Below are positions 10,594 to 16,900 of a DNA stretch of 64,000 nt, piece by piece. The translations under genes and the position numbers were made by a program. The stretch comes from Sphingomonas caeni (lineage in GTDB: Bacteria > Pseudomonadota > Alphaproteobacteria > Sphingomonadales > Sphingomonadaceae): the NCBI RefSeq assembly GCF_026013415.1, contig NZ_JAPDOK010000002.1:1-64000 (forward strand), given 5' to 3'. The notes beneath the pieces are model-generated. The model saw nothing but the letters and a program-made list of their open reading frames with translations, was not told where the DNA came from and did not search any database. Within the stretch, counting starts at the first letter, position 1, and every line of letters begins with the position of its first letter.

Positions 10594-10792
10594 CCGTCAT
10601 CCCCGCGAAAGCCGGGACCCAGCTTCTTCTCCGCGCGTCAGCACAATTCAAAAAGAGGAAGGAAGAGGCTCACGCAAAGACGCGAAGGCGCAAAGAGCGT
10701 GATCCTTGCTGAAACCTCTTCGCGTCTTCGCGTCTTTGTGGGAAATCTGGAATCAGCTGGGTCCCGGCTTTCGCCGGGATGACGGTTGGTTA
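10594..10792. repeat. Composite repeat: family B arms enclosing a family D palindrome
   Basis: A left family B arm (10595-10622) and a right one (10757-10785) enclose a family D palindrome (10672-10742), whose arms read AAAGACGCGAAGGCGCAAAG and its near complement. The nesting suggests one repeat inserted into another. It fills most of the 350-bp gap between the GIN lipoprotein and carD; the remainder is the carD terminator. Confidence 0.8.
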
Positions 10793-12097: not shown

Positions 12098-12406
12098 TTA
12101 TCTTTTTGCGCTGCGCTGGGCCGCGGCACCGGCCCGCTCGTCGAGCGTCAGCTCGACATAACAAGCCCGCGCCTCGGCCGGGGGGCCGCGGCGCGTGGGG
12201 AGCGCTTCTATCCGGACGACGCGGATCTTGTGGTCATGGGTCAGGAAGGCAAGGACGTTGCCGGGGCGTACGGCCGCCGCGGCCTTCTCGATCCTGCGGC
12301 CGTCGATGCGGAGATGGCCGCCATGCGCCAGATCCTGCGCCCAGCCGCGCGTCTTGGTGAGCCGCGCGAACCAGAGGAAGCGATCGAGGCGCATGCTGTC
12401 AGCCAT
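12098..12406 (-). CDS. S4-domain RNA-binding protein (Hsp15-like)
   Basis: 102 aa. An N-terminal S4 domain (MRLDRFLWFARLTKTRGWAQ ... GHLRIDGRRIEKAAAAVRPG) is followed by a short basic tail. Hsp15-type proteins bind stalled 50S subunits carrying nascent chains. Its ATG overlaps the stop of the helicase gene by 8 bases, so translation is probably coupled. Confidence 0.88.
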   Translation of the reverse strand: MADSMRLDRFLWFARLTKTRGWAQDLAHGGHLRIDGRRIEKAAAAVRPGNVLAFLTHDHKIRVVRIEALPTRRGPPAEARACYVELTLDERAGAAAQRSAKR

Positions 12407-14939
12407 CGCGCAACCCTGCGAGCGCGGCGAAGGCGTTGCCCTCGGGCGCGGCCTTGGGCTTGGCCGCGGGGGTGAGGCCCTGCCAGATCCACGCGCCCTC
12501 CCTGCCCCGCGCGGTGCGGAAGCCGAGCTGCGCCATCAGCCGCGCGAGCGTCTCGGGCTGGAGCCCCATCGAGGTGGCGAGCGCGGGATCGGGGATGAAG
12601 GGCTTCCTCCCTTTGCGCGACTCATGCGCGGCGCAGGCGATGCGCTCGACCAGATCGACGCGGACGGCCTGGCTCCCAAGCGGGCGGAAGCCGTGCGCGA
12701 GATCGGCGCCGGGGGCGCCCCGCGGGAGGACGGTGGCGCCATCGGGCGGGCCGGTGTCGAGCCCCACCAGCATCCGCCGCCAGCGCGCGGCCCCTGGCTT
12801 GAGCAAGCCCGGGGCGAACAGATCGAGCGTGCCGATGGTCACCCCGATCCGGCGCAGCGCCTGCCGCGCCTGGGTGTCGAGCGCCTCGACCATCGGCCCC
12901 GCGGCCCGGCGCGGAAGCAACCCGCCCGCTTCGATCAGCGCGCCGGCGATGGCGCGCAGGCGCGGGCCGGCCTGCGGATCGCGGGTGGCGGCGTCGAGCT
13001 TGGCGAGGACGGGGAGATGGCGCGCGAGCTGGGCGGCGAACCACGCCTCGAGGCGCGCCTGGATCGCGCCGCGGGCCTGTGCATCGAGGACATCGAGCGC
13101 GCGGTCGAGGATGATGCGCGGCCGGGCGAGGTTGGCGCCGGGGTGAAGTTTGGCCACCACGCTACCCTCCCAAACCACCGTTCGCCCTGAGCTTGTCGAA
13201 GGGCTGTTCTTCTTCTCGGCGGAAGGGAAGGACTGTGCTTCGACAAGCCCAGCACGAACGGATTGAAGGGTCAGTTCGTGATCCTCAGCTCCCGCCAGCG
13301 CCTCCCCCCGCTTCCTCAACTCCGCCCCCAGCCGTTTCTCCGCCGCCGCGAGCAGCATCCGCTTGTCCGCCGCACGCGCATCGGGATCGACGATGAAACG
13401 GAACCCCTCGAGCCGCCCCAGCGCATGTTCCTCGACGCTCACCTCGCCATCGTCGCCGATCGTCACCGGCAGGCTGCTCGCCCCCGCCCCGATCTGGCGC
13501 AGCAGCACCGTGGTGCGCTTGTCGACGAAACGCTGGGTGAGGCTGGCGTGGAGCGCGTCCGAGAGCCGCTCCTCGATCGCCCGCGTTCGCTCGGCCCAAT
13601 GCTCGGGGCTCTCCAGCCAGTCGGACCGGTGCGCGATATAGGCCCAGCTGCGCGCCGCGGCGATGCGGCCGGCGATCGTCTCGACATCGCCGCCCATCTG
13701 ATCGAGCCGGGCGATCTCGTCGGCGAACCATTGATGGGGGACGTGGCCCTGCCCCTCGCTCAGATGCCCGAACAGCCGCCCAACGAAACGCGCATGCGGA
13801 TCGGCGCCGAGCTTGCGGAAATCGGGCAGCCCGCACGCCGCCCAGAGCCGCCGCACCATGACCCGAGAACCTACTCTGTCGCGCACCCAGGGCTCGTCGG
13901 CGAGGCGCTTGAGCACCGCGAGATCGACCGCCTCGGGGGCAGCGCGGAGCACCGGTTCGAACGGCTTGCGCTCGAGGCTGGCGATGAGGTCGTCGATGCT
14001 CGAAAGGTCGGGCTCGCCCTCGCGCCAATAGAGATGTTCGAGCCGGGGCACGCGGTGCGCCTCGATCGCGAGCACCTCTTCCGGGGTGAAGGCCTCGGGC
14101 CCTTGCTCGTGAAGCGCGCCGAACGTCCCGTCCTTCTGGTGCCGCCCCGCGCGCCCGGCGATCTGCGCCATTTCGGCCAGCGTCAGGCGGCGCTGGCGGC
14201 GCCCGTCGAACTTGTGGAGCGAGGCGAAGGCGACATGCGCCACGTCCATGTTGAGCCCCATCCCGATCGCGTCGGTCGCAACGAGATAATCGACCTCGCC
14301 CGCCTGGAACATCGCGACCTGGGCGTTGCGGGTGCGGGGGGAGAGCGCGCCCATCACCACCGCCGCGCCGCCGCGCAGGCGCCGCAGCGCCTCGGCCACG
14401 GCATAGACTTCCTCCGCCGAGAAGGCGACGATCGCCGAGCGGCGCGGCAGCCGCGACAGTTTCTTCGCCCCGGCATAGCCGAGCGTCGAGAAGCGCGGGC
14501 GGCCGACGATCTCGGCCTCGGGGACCAGCGCCTTGAGCATCGGCTTCAGCGAATCGGAGCCGAGGATCATCGTCTCCTCGCGGCCCCGCGCGCGGAGCAA
14601 CCGGTCGGTGAAGACGTGGCCGCGCTCCGGGTCCGCGCCCAGCTGCGCCTCGTCGAGCGCGACGAACGCCAGCTCGCGGTCCAGCGGCATCGATTCGGCG
14701 GTGCACAGGAACCAGCGGGCATTGGCGGGCAGGATCTTCTCCTCGCCCGTGAGCAGCGCGACTTCGCCCGGCCCCTTCATCCGGACGACGCGCTCATACA
14801 CTTCCCGCGCGAGCAGCCGCAGCGGGAAGCCGATCATGCCCGAGGCATGACCGCATAGCCGCTCGACCGCCAAATGGGTCTTGCCCGTGTTGGTCGGTCC
14901 GAGAACGGCAGTGATGGAGGAACGCGCGAACCGACTCAT
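12399..14939 (-). CDS. SUV3-like ATP-dependent helicase
   Basis: 846 aa from ATG 14939 (MSRFARSSITAVLGPTNTGK). The upstream open frame is only a repeat. Walker A is GPTNTGKT near residue 14 and motif II is LDEAQ near 95. The helicase C-terminal domain contains MGLNMDVAHVAFASLHKFDG and IAGRAGRH (motif VI). This arrangement, with a short RecA-like N-domain and SUV3-type core, suggests RNA or RNA/DNA unwinding in RNA turnover. Residues of about 560-587 are encoded by an in-frame palindromic repeat (13178-13261). The downstream S4 gene overlaps it. Confidence 0.88.
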   Translation of the reverse strand: MSRFARSSITAVLGPTNTGKTHLAVERLCGHASGMIGFPLRLLAREVYERVVRMKGPGEVALLTGEEKILPANARWFLCTAESMPLDRELAFVALDEAQLGADPERGHVFTDRLLRARGREETMILGSDSLKPMLKALVPEAEIVGRPRFSTLGYAGAKKLSRLPRRSAIVAFSAEEVYAVAEALRRLRGGAAVVMGALSPRTRNAQVAMFQAGEVDYLVATDAIGMGLNMDVAHVAFASLHKFDGRRQRRLTLAEMAQIAGRAGRHQKDGTFGALHEQGPEAFTPEEVLAIEAHRVPRLEHLYWREGEPDLSSIDDLIASLERKPFEPVLRAAPEAVDLAVLKRLADEPWVRDRVGSRVMVRRLWAACGLPDFRKLGADPHARFVGRLFGHLSEGQGHVPHQWFADEIARLDQMGGDVETIAGRIAAARSWAYIAHRSDWLESPEHWAERTRAIEERLSDALHASLTQRFVDKRTTVLLRQIGAGASSLPVTIGDDGEVSVEEHALGRLEGFRFIVDPDARAADKRMLLAAAEKRLGAELRKRGEALAGAEDHELTLQSVRAGLVEAQSFPSAEKKNSPSTSSGRTVVWEGSVVAKLHPGANLARPRIILDRALDVLDAQARGAIQARLEAWFAAQLARHLPVLAKLDAATRDPQAGPRLRAIAGALIEAGGLLPRRAAGPMVEALDTQARQALRRIGVTIGTLDLFAPGLLKPGAARWRRMLVGLDTGPPDGATVLPRGAPGADLAHGFRPLGSQAVRVDLVERIACAAHESRKGRKPFIPDPALATSMGLQPETLARLMAQLGFRTARGREGAWIWQGLTPAAKPKAAPEGNAFAALAGLRDG
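13178..13261. repeat. Palindromic element inside the helicase coding sequence (family E)
   Basis: The left arm CCGTTCGCCCTGAGCTTGTC and the right arm (CTTCGACAAGCCCAGCACGA and following) are imperfect inverted repeats around about 35 bp. The 84-bp length is a multiple of three, so the helicase frame stays open. It encodes a Ser/Thr-rich stretch (NSPSTSSGRTVVW). The same arm sequence is, from general knowledge, a widespread dispersed repeat in sphingomonads and xanthomonads. Confidence 0.8.
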
Positions 14940-14976: not shown

Positions 14977-15052
14977 GTGCCGGCCCGCTCCCCCACCCGG
15001 CCTCCCATAGGCTACTAGAGTAAGGGAGGCCGGGTGGGGGAGCGGGCCGCAC
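14977..15052. repeat. Palindromic intergenic repeat, family C, copy 1
   Basis: GGCCCGCTCCCCCACCCGGC arms in inverted orientation with a 17-nt AT-richer centre. It is in the leader of the helicase gene. Confidence 0.85.
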
Positions 15053-15224: not shown

Positions 15225-16784
15225 TTGACTTTAAGCACCTCCTTCCACAGTGATCATGGCCATGCCGGGGGTTACGGCACGACCATCGACAACGATCCTT
15301 TGTGGGGGCAGCGCGCCTTGTTCACGCGCAATGACTATGGACTGGAAGGTGGCGGCGGGAGCGCGAAGGCGCGGCCCGGACTGATCCAGCGCCATTTCCC
15401 CGATCTCGATCTCACCCCCGATCTCGGCTCGCGGATCGGCACGCTCACTTGGTATCGCGGCGCCGCGACCTGCATCGGGCTTTGCGCGCTCACCTTCCTG
15501 ATGTCGCCGGGCTTCGAAAATCCGATCTACGGCTTCGCCCCCGCCGCGCTCAAGGGCAAGGACTATGAGGCGACCAGGGCGCAGTCGATCGCGCCGCTCG
15601 CGAAGGGCGCCACCACCGGCTATCACATGGCGGCGACCAAGTTGGTCGCGCCGCTCGCCGACACCCCCGAACGCCCGCAGATCGAGATCAACGCCAAGCT
15701 CGCCCAGGGCGGCTCGCTGATGAGCGTGCTCAAGCGCTCGGGCGTGGGCGGCGGCGATGCCGATGCGACGGTCGCGCTGATCGGCAAGGCGCTGGCGCTC
15801 GGCGATATCGAGGGCGGCGTGCCCGTCGACATCACGCTCGGCCGCCGTTCGGACAAGACCCAGCCGCGGCCCCTCCAGGCGCTGGCCTTCCGCGCGCGCT
15901 TCGATCTCAATCTCCAGATCACCCGCGGCGCCAATGGCGAGCTGTCGCTCAAGGAAATGCCGATCCGGATCGATAACACGCCGCTGCGCGTCCAGGGCGA
16001 GTTCGGGCAGAGCCTCTATCGCGCCGCGCGCGCGGCGGGCGCGCCGGCCAAGGCGGTCGAATCCTTCATCCGATCGGTCGGCACGCGGATGCCGATCAGC
16101 CGCATGGGCGCGGGTTGCCGCTTCGACATCATCGTCGAGCAGGCGCGCGCCGAGACCGGCGAGGTCCGGATGGGCGAGCTGATGTATGCCGGGATCACCG
16201 GCTGTTCGAACAAGATGCAGCTCGTCCGCATGACGATCGACGGGCGCGACGAATGGGTCGACAGCTCGGGCCGCGGCGAGCGCCGGGGCAGCATGGCGAT
16301 GCCGACCCCCGGCCGCATCTCCTCGGGCTTCGGGATGCGCCGCCATCCGATCCTCGGCTATGTCCGCATGCACAAGGGGATGGACATCGCCGCGCCCTGG
16401 GGCACCCCCGTCTATGCCGCGAGCGACGGCGTGGTCCAGTTCGCGGGCCGCGCGAGCGGCTATGGCAACCTCATCCGCATCGCGCATGCCGGACCCTATG
16501 GCACCGGCTACGGCCATCTCAGCCGCATCACCGTCCGTCCGGGCCAGCGCGTCCGGCGCGGCCAACTGATCGGCGCGGTGGGCAATGTCGGCCTCTCGAC
16601 GGGGCCGCACCTCCATTACGAACTTTACCGCAACGGCATTCCGATCAATCCGCGCTCGGTCGCCTTCTCGGTCGAACGCCAGCTCGACGGCGGTGCGATG
16701 GCCGCGCTACGCTCGCGGCTCGGACGGCTGATGGCGGTGCCCGTCGGCGCCGGCGCACGCCCGCACGAGGACGACGAGGACTGA
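15225..16784 (+). CDS. M23 (LytM) peptidoglycan endopeptidase
   Basis: 519 aa if translation starts at TTG 15225; the start is uncertain because no strong ribosome-binding site is visible. One transmembrane helix near residues 83-98 (ATCIGLCALTFLMSPGF) anchors the protein. A LysM/OapA-like and helical middle region follows. The C-terminal LytM domain (from about residue 370) has the zinc motif HKGMDIAAPWG and the catalytic GPHLHYEL. It should cut peptidoglycan cross-bridges in the periplasm, linked to cell separation or wall growth. It converges with the HerA gene. Confidence 0.88.
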   Translation: MTLSTSFHSDHGHAGGYGTTIDNDPLWGQRALFTRNDYGLEGGGGSAKARPGLIQRHFPDLDLTPDLGSRIGTLTWYRGAATCIGLCALTFLMSPGFENPIYGFAPAALKGKDYEATRAQSIAPLAKGATTGYHMAATKLVAPLADTPERPQIEINAKLAQGGSLMSVLKRSGVGGGDADATVALIGKALALGDIEGGVPVDITLGRRSDKTQPRPLQALAFRARFDLNLQITRGANGELSLKEMPIRIDNTPLRVQGEFGQSLYRAARAAGAPAKAVESFIRSVGTRMPISRMGAGCRFDIIVEQARAETGEVRMGELMYAGITGCSNKMQLVRMTIDGRDEWVDSSGRGERRGSMAMPTPGRISSGFGMRRHPILGYVRMHKGMDIAAPWGTPVYAASDGVVQFAGRASGYGNLIRIAHAGPYGTGYGHLSRITVRPGQRVRRGQLIGAVGNVGLSTGPHLHYELYRNGIPINPRSVAFSVERQLDGGAMAALRSRLGRLMAVPVGAGARPHEDDED

Positions 16785-16817: not shown

Positions 16818-16900
16818 CTTCTTCTCTTCGTGTCTTTGCGTCTTTGCGGAAATCTATTTTTCTAGAATTTCCGCAAAGACGCGAAGACGCAAAGAAGAAG
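16818..16900. repeat. Palindromic repeat, family D, between convergent genes
   Basis: CGTCTTTGCGGAAAT and ATTTCCGCAAAGACG arms form a near-perfect long hairpin around a T/A-rich centre (CTATTTTTCTAGA). Its position between convergent ends suggests a bidirectional terminator. A degenerate family B arm follows at about 16903-16925. Confidence 0.75.

Follow-up and report, generated by a model that had tools for sequence, protein, structure and literature searches.

In the BIMEs of E. coli, REP monomers of different types are paired in inverted orientation, and these elements are rarely coding. The 84-bp repeat described here, called REP_A, likewise pairs differing monomers inversely; as far as BIMEs are generally known, its sequence, host and spacing differ from theirs.

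Intragenic REPs have been catalogued for the GTAG and CGTC superfamilies, where they encode 20–30 residues and are often dimers (Di Nocera et al. 2013; PMC3733652). Their hosts include uvrA, RNA helicases and tRNA-modifying enzymes, nucleic-acid enzymes are enriched among the hosts in other genomes, and S. alaskensis and E. litoralis are among the organisms (PMC3733652). A role as RNA elements has been proposed for REPs that lie close to the ends of genes (PMC3733652). Like the GTAG and CGTC REPs, REP_A consists of short hairpins, mostly in inverted dimers that are mostly intergenic, with some wholly within ORFs (PMC3733652). Unlike them, it has neither tag and its dimers are mostly hetero-typic. 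CGTC REPs are defined by a CGTC (or TGTC/CCTC) tag, an 8–9 bp stem starting with AT, a 4–5 nt loop and a CCA tail, whereas REP_A begins with CCGTTCG and has a stem of about 4 bp around GAGCTTGTCGA. No GTAG tag occurs in the 84 bp of the element.

The RPEs (Ogata et al. 2000, 2002) are in-frame palindromes of Rickettsia, and an RPE-bearing guanylate kinase was reported to be translated and active (PMC2229807). Different RPE groups were found at the same loci of orthologues, and the choice between a hotspot and a common origin was left open (PMC3767692). REP_A resembles RPE-1 to RPE-7 in being tolerated in frame in protein genes (helicase, UvrA, E2, MtaB). It differs from them in a sequence unrelated by inspection, in the bacterial order of its host, in being a shorter hairpin dimer and in occupying at least two codon phases. 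The ATGAC (or GTCAT) motif of RPE-4, RPE-6 and RPE-7, the groups covered by this comparison, is missing from 13178-13261. By this motif and by its REP-dimer anatomy, REP_A is not an RPE. The likeness to the Rickettsia elements proposed in the initial annotation thus stands for the behaviour (in frame, in a functional gene, missing from homologues) but not for the identity of the element. The same annotation treated a sphingomonad helicase as an unexpected host; the host is indeed a sphingomonad SUV3-like helicase, but S. alaskensis and E. litoralis already have intragenic REPs on record (PMC3733652), so this is no surprise. Intragenic REPs themselves are known, also from sphingomonads and from uvrA. 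The present data add two points: the dimers are built from monomers of differing type with covarying stems, and unrelated palindromes recur in the same loops across the genus.

A palindromic element in frame within a helicase gene

The features below lie in the window, i.e. the whole stretch of 64,000 nucleotides that was analysed.

12399..14939, minus strand: SUV3-like DEXQ RNA helicase gene, 846 aa, carrying the insert (Pfam, orthologues, nearest structures)
13178..13261, no strand assigned: REP_A, 84-bp inverted REP dimer, in frame, read on the minus strand as codons 560-587 (orthologue alignments)
13178..13204, plus strand: hairpin monomer of the GCC/GGC stem type, CCGTTCGCCCTGAGCTTGTCGAAGGGC
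13205..13234, no strand assigned: central spacer of the dimer, variable, with CTTCTTC-type, partly complementary tracts
13235..13261, minus strand: hairpin monomer of the GTG/CAC stem type, CCGTTCGTGCTGGGCTTGTCGAAGCAC on the minus strand

The helicase ORF can be extended to 15008, and the start at 14939 agrees with the orthologues. Its Pfam domains are DEXQc_Suv3 and Helicase_C, and the nearest solved structures are SUV3 helicases, which match over residues 5-270. The initial annotation had placed a palindrome with inverted arms at exactly 13178-13261, inside this coding sequence and in frame, adding about 28 Ser/Thr-rich residues near position 560, and our results bear this out. The arms (13178-13212 and 13227-13261) are 35 nt each and lie 14 nt apart; they are only 80% complementary because each end forms its own hairpin monomer and the two differ in stem type. 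The strand folds with −26.7 kcal/mol, compared to −13.1 in dinucleotide shuffles (z −5.5, reached by 0 of 200 shuffles). REP_A runs from base 2 of codon 560 to base 1 of codon 588 and so does not alter the frame. It encodes SVRAGLVEAQSFPSAEKKNSPSTSSGRT, residues 560-587 (S560-T587), with Ser or Thr at 9 of the 28 positions, and this segment is missing from the orthologues of most relatives.

The flanks of the element, CCAAACCA and ATTGAAGG, share no direct duplication of the target site of the kind that marks a MITE, and no excision footprint was seen in a close sister of the window strain. The site is not cleanly cut, as the host's own loop is a few residues shorter than in most empty orthologues. 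An Rfam search with the element returned sub-threshold matches only, none above the gathering score, and a search of open-licence papers with the bare sequence TTCGACAAGCTCAG gave no match.

REP_A is a dispersed hairpin dimer

The 13-nt arm core, TGAGCTTGTCGAA, has 46 exact copies in the 4.10-Mb genome, compared to 0 for a reversed control. Read around each genomic copy of this core, the unit is a 27-nt monomer, CCGTTCG-NN-CTGAGCTTGTCGAAG-NNN. The bases flanking the core pair with each other and covary (GCC/GGC, GTG/CAC, GGG/CCC, GCG/CGC and GGC/GCC), and a fully paired 3-bp stem of one of these five types was present in 45 of 51 genomic monomers. The genome holds 25 inverted dimers, 22 of which join a GCC monomer to a non-GCC monomer, where 12.6 would be expected at random pairing (P = 1e-4). 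Among relatives the dimer is patchy, with at least one copy in 33 of 100 genomes and up to 47 in one of them; it was found in 5 of 150 genomes of a phylum-wide sample. REP_A has features by which REP/BIME-like elements are recognized, namely a hairpin monomer in the 20–40 nt range in many dispersed copies, inverted dimers and a predominantly extragenic location. We concluded that it is a genuine dispersed repeat, a REP-type hairpin dimer.

Single core matches at three other loci (L081, L096 and L097) are chance matches within genes. Eight further loci (L062, L065, L069, L074, L076, L080, L089 and L095) carry a longer variant, in which the core lies within GAGTAG..CTACTC and TTCGATACG arms. This variant often stands beside a gene end and is apparently a distinct composite repeat.

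Genomic context of the copies

Gene calls around the copies were made by codon-position GC on the stretches surrounding the repeats. Intergenic positions account for 20 of the 25 dimers, most of them no more than 30 bp from the end of a gene. A further dimer (L071) immediately precedes a start, and the other four are in frame within genes, namely those of the SUV3-like helicase, UvrA (L092), the linker of the dihydrolipoamide acyltransferase E2 (L078) and MtaB (L090). No dimer that interrupts a gene was seen among the 25. As expected from the initial annotation, then, the repeat is dispersed and mostly intergenic, and the genome-wide count of coding-region copies that it proposed gives 4 of 25, all in frame. 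Even if 75% of the genome is coding, the probability that four or fewer of 25 dimers fall in genes is 1e-9. Open frames are no commoner in the dimers than in shuffles (3.72 and 3.76 per dimer, respectively), which rules out a repeat specially adapted for coding; the four coding copies occupy two different codon phases. Most ORFs running across intergenic copies are antisense shadows by codon-position GC.

Two copies adjoin a true start on its 5' side and were left out of the coding count. One (L071:2975-3065) is directly upstream of the likely start of a GNAT gene, the other (L086:3019-3105) of an RNase J-like gene, and in both cases the open frame of the repeat continues into the gene. At such places an automatic gene caller may choose the wrong start and count the repeat as part of the protein.

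A RAYT was considered as the mobiliser of REP_A and rejected, as the genome has a single Y1_Tnp gene and the repeats at its ends, GGATTACGGTGACAG, are unrelated to REP_A. The nearest REP_A arm, among those listed, is about 19 kb from the Y1 gene. CGTC REPs likewise have no RAYT association, so its absence is compatible with a REP. This RAYT-like Y1 gene (L269, G000:C18 near 411019) lies between inverted copies of GGATTACGGTGACAGTGCACTAATT, near what may be a tRNA gene; the element is apparently self-contained and unrelated to REP_A.

Empty, occupied and replaced loops in helicase orthologues

In the first 40 relatives the tblastn alignment was usually broken at residues 558-585. We then compared 80 further helicase orthologues, nearly all from Sphingomonas and partly the same genomes under different names. 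The loop between D553 and W590 has 11–17 residues in about 70 of these 80, compared to 36 in the window. On these alignments REP_A is an insertion in the helicase, because it is missing from about 70 Sphingomonas orthologues. The alignment proposed in the initial annotation therefore came out as anticipated: residues 560-587 are missing from relatives, and homologues that lack the palindrome also lack these residues. Only S. xinjiangensis L104 seems at first to depart from this, and it carries a decayed remnant of the same length.

REP_A or its remnants occupy the same loop in seven orthologues: L099, L100 (S. gei), L103, L104 (S. xinjiangensis), L119, L125 and L136. A different palindrome, CCGGCGAA..TTCGCCGG, is found at this loop in L106 and L141, and an apparent short remnant of it in L102. 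Among 81 helicases there are ten insertions of at least 15 residues, all of them frame-keeping and all in this one loop. Insert-bearing helicases are scattered among empty ones on the gene tree, which needs at least 8 changes, and in the nearest relative (L101) REP_A is lost or absent. The second palindrome entered the loop at least twice, because L141 lies in a distant clade.

All REP_A copies in the helicase loop share one orientation and one frame. This fits an ancestral insertion with many losses, and many losses are what a single ancestral insertion requires because of the changes counted on the tree. The left arm of the inserts of L099 and L136, on the other hand, is a chimera in both, with part of the monomer replaced by a CCCCGGACTGGATCCGGGG hairpin, and this chimeric-arm variant is itself dispersed, with 2–4 copies in each of four relatives' genomes. 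The chimeric arm points to re-insertion or conversion of REP_A in the loop.

Selection on the gene and the predicted loop

Against six relatives, dN/dS in the helicase was 0.14-0.20 for the part upstream of the insert and 0.17-0.27 for the part downstream of it. Both flanks, including the downstream half, are thus under purifying selection, which rules out a pseudogene and implies that the insert is read through. Between L103 and L104, pN/pS was 0.36/0.47 in the insert region and 0.05/0.52 in the flanks, with identical length and frame. In S. xinjiangensis L104 both the palindrome and the peptide have decayed, and the length and frame still match those of its sister L103. The inserted peptide hence drifts close to neutrally, and what selection keeps is the frame and the approximate length.

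An AlphaFold model was built from a 43-row alignment (mean pLDDT 68, poor in the N-terminal core and good in the C-terminal part). The pLDDT is below 50 at residues 563-583 and about 90 past residue 590. The model places the insert as a disordered tip between two predicted strands:

13260..13274, minus strand: predicted beta strand 556-560, upstream side of the loop (AlphaFold model)
13170..13184, minus strand: predicted beta strand 586-590, downstream side of the loop (AlphaFold model)

Unrelated palindromes in the same loops of other proteins

In MtaB the element lies near the C-terminus (L090:3011-3089); two of 29 relatives examined (L267 and L268) have it at the same site and 27 are empty. 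In E2 it is in frame in the lipoyl-domain linker (L078:3021-3111). REP_A-derived peptides (VRAEPVEA..PFDKLRANG) occur in this linker in at least six relatives (L210-L215), and the remaining relatives have other low-complexity or palindrome-derived peptides there. In the UvrA segment before NRIVFSEKFAC, REP_A is present in the window genome (L092:3041-3130). Among the UvrA loci of relatives (L180-L208), three have REP_A in this segment, five have the CCGGCGAA palindrome, and about thirteen have a strongly folding palindrome of a third family, CCCCTCCC..GGGAGGGG. These assignments of insert families in UvrA and E2 rest on regular-expression motifs, with a permissive class C. Most relatives examined have an in-frame palindrome in the UvrA stretch VDTTV..NRIVFSEKFAC; at least three unrelated families are represented, at two sub-sites flanking VREAPQTF. 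The proportions for UvrA and E2 are biased upward, since the thirty loci compared were those that scored best, out of about 200 genomes, with an insert-containing query.

Sequence-unrelated palindromes therefore occupy the same loops, two families in that of the helicase and at least three in that of UvrA. This suggests that repeatedly occupied loops are spots where selection tolerates insertions, and implies that repeated insertion into such tolerant loops accounts for some or all of the pattern. The Sphingomonas data thereby separate a hotspot from one ancient, diverged insertion, the alternatives left open for Rickettsia (PMC3767692).

Origin and fate of the insert

We consider it probable (roughly 85%) that a frame-keeping insertion of a REP-type mobile repeat survived in a tolerant loop and is translated as a disordered linker. 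An ancestral REP_A copy would have entered the helicase gene in an ancestor of this Sphingomonas group, or repeatedly in related species. It could persist as its net length kept the frame, the frame read has no stop, and the site is probably a flexible C-terminal tip that joins two beta strands at a distance from the helicase core. Transcription and translation would then turn the element into a disordered linker, and copies elsewhere in genes would have been purged, leaving survivors in loops and linkers. The translation of the insert, the mobility of the repeat and its neutrality for enzyme activity are what we infer on this account.

Alternatively, the insert might have been recruited as a flexible arm for binding a partner or nucleic acid, with selection acting on the peptide. 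The insert is kept in frame in several species, and its in-frame hosts include nucleic-acid enzymes (helicase, UvrA, MtaB). However, the peptide diverges nearly neutrally in L104 and L119, most close relatives, including the nearest (L101), have lost or never had it, L106 has an unrelated palindrome at this position, and the E2 linker, which belongs to no nucleic-acid protein, is also a host. Recruitment is accordingly improbable. We give even less credence to selection for the nucleic-acid structure of the palindrome, in which an mRNA hairpin would slow translation or protect or cleave the transcript and the peptide would be incidental. The strong fold and the RNA role supposed for REPs near gene ends (PMC3733652) would agree with this; the structure has nonetheless decayed in L104 and L119 with the frame kept, and the palindrome is missing from most orthologues. 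A frameshifted pseudogene, named in the initial annotation as a possible refutation, or an assembly or annotation artefact is very improbable, for although the window genome is a single draft assembly of 24 contigs, the 846-codon ORF is unbroken, both sides are under purifying selection (dN/dS 0.14-0.27) and the element is found at the same loop in independent genomes.

Tentatively, and as less likely than not, we propose that the helicase C-terminal hairpin, the UvrA segment before NRIVFSEKFAC and the E2 lipoyl linker are recurrent landing pads, where members of at least three unrelated families of mobile palindromes insert, replace one another and erode without loss of the frame. These loops would be a continuing source of disordered segments, possibly with an insertion bias or selection towards nucleic-acid enzymes. 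Intragenic palindromes offer a route from selfish DNA to protein, and in Sphingomonas, which is free-living, lab-friendly and represented by hundreds of genomes, one can trace how coding repeats are gained, replaced and degraded. The peptides VRAELVEA, FDKLRANG and STSSGRT will appear to gene finders and domain models in unrelated proteins.

Other inverted repeats in the window

Between the helicase start and a gene at 15225, close to the former on its 5' side, there is a near-perfect 34-nt inverted repeat (14981-15049, 91%, 1-nt spacer, CGGCCCGCTCCCCCACCCGGCCTCCC) that resembles the CCCTCCC palindrome class in relatives' UvrA. At 10594-10785, CGTC-like arms (CCGTCATCCCCGCGAAAGCCGGGACCCAGC, 36 nt, 92%) surround an inverted repeat of another family (TCACGCAAAGACGCGAAGGCG, 10670-10743), as if one repeat were nested in another. 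The GCAAAGACGCGAAG inverted repeat occurs a second time between genes at 16825-16895 (29 nt, 90%).
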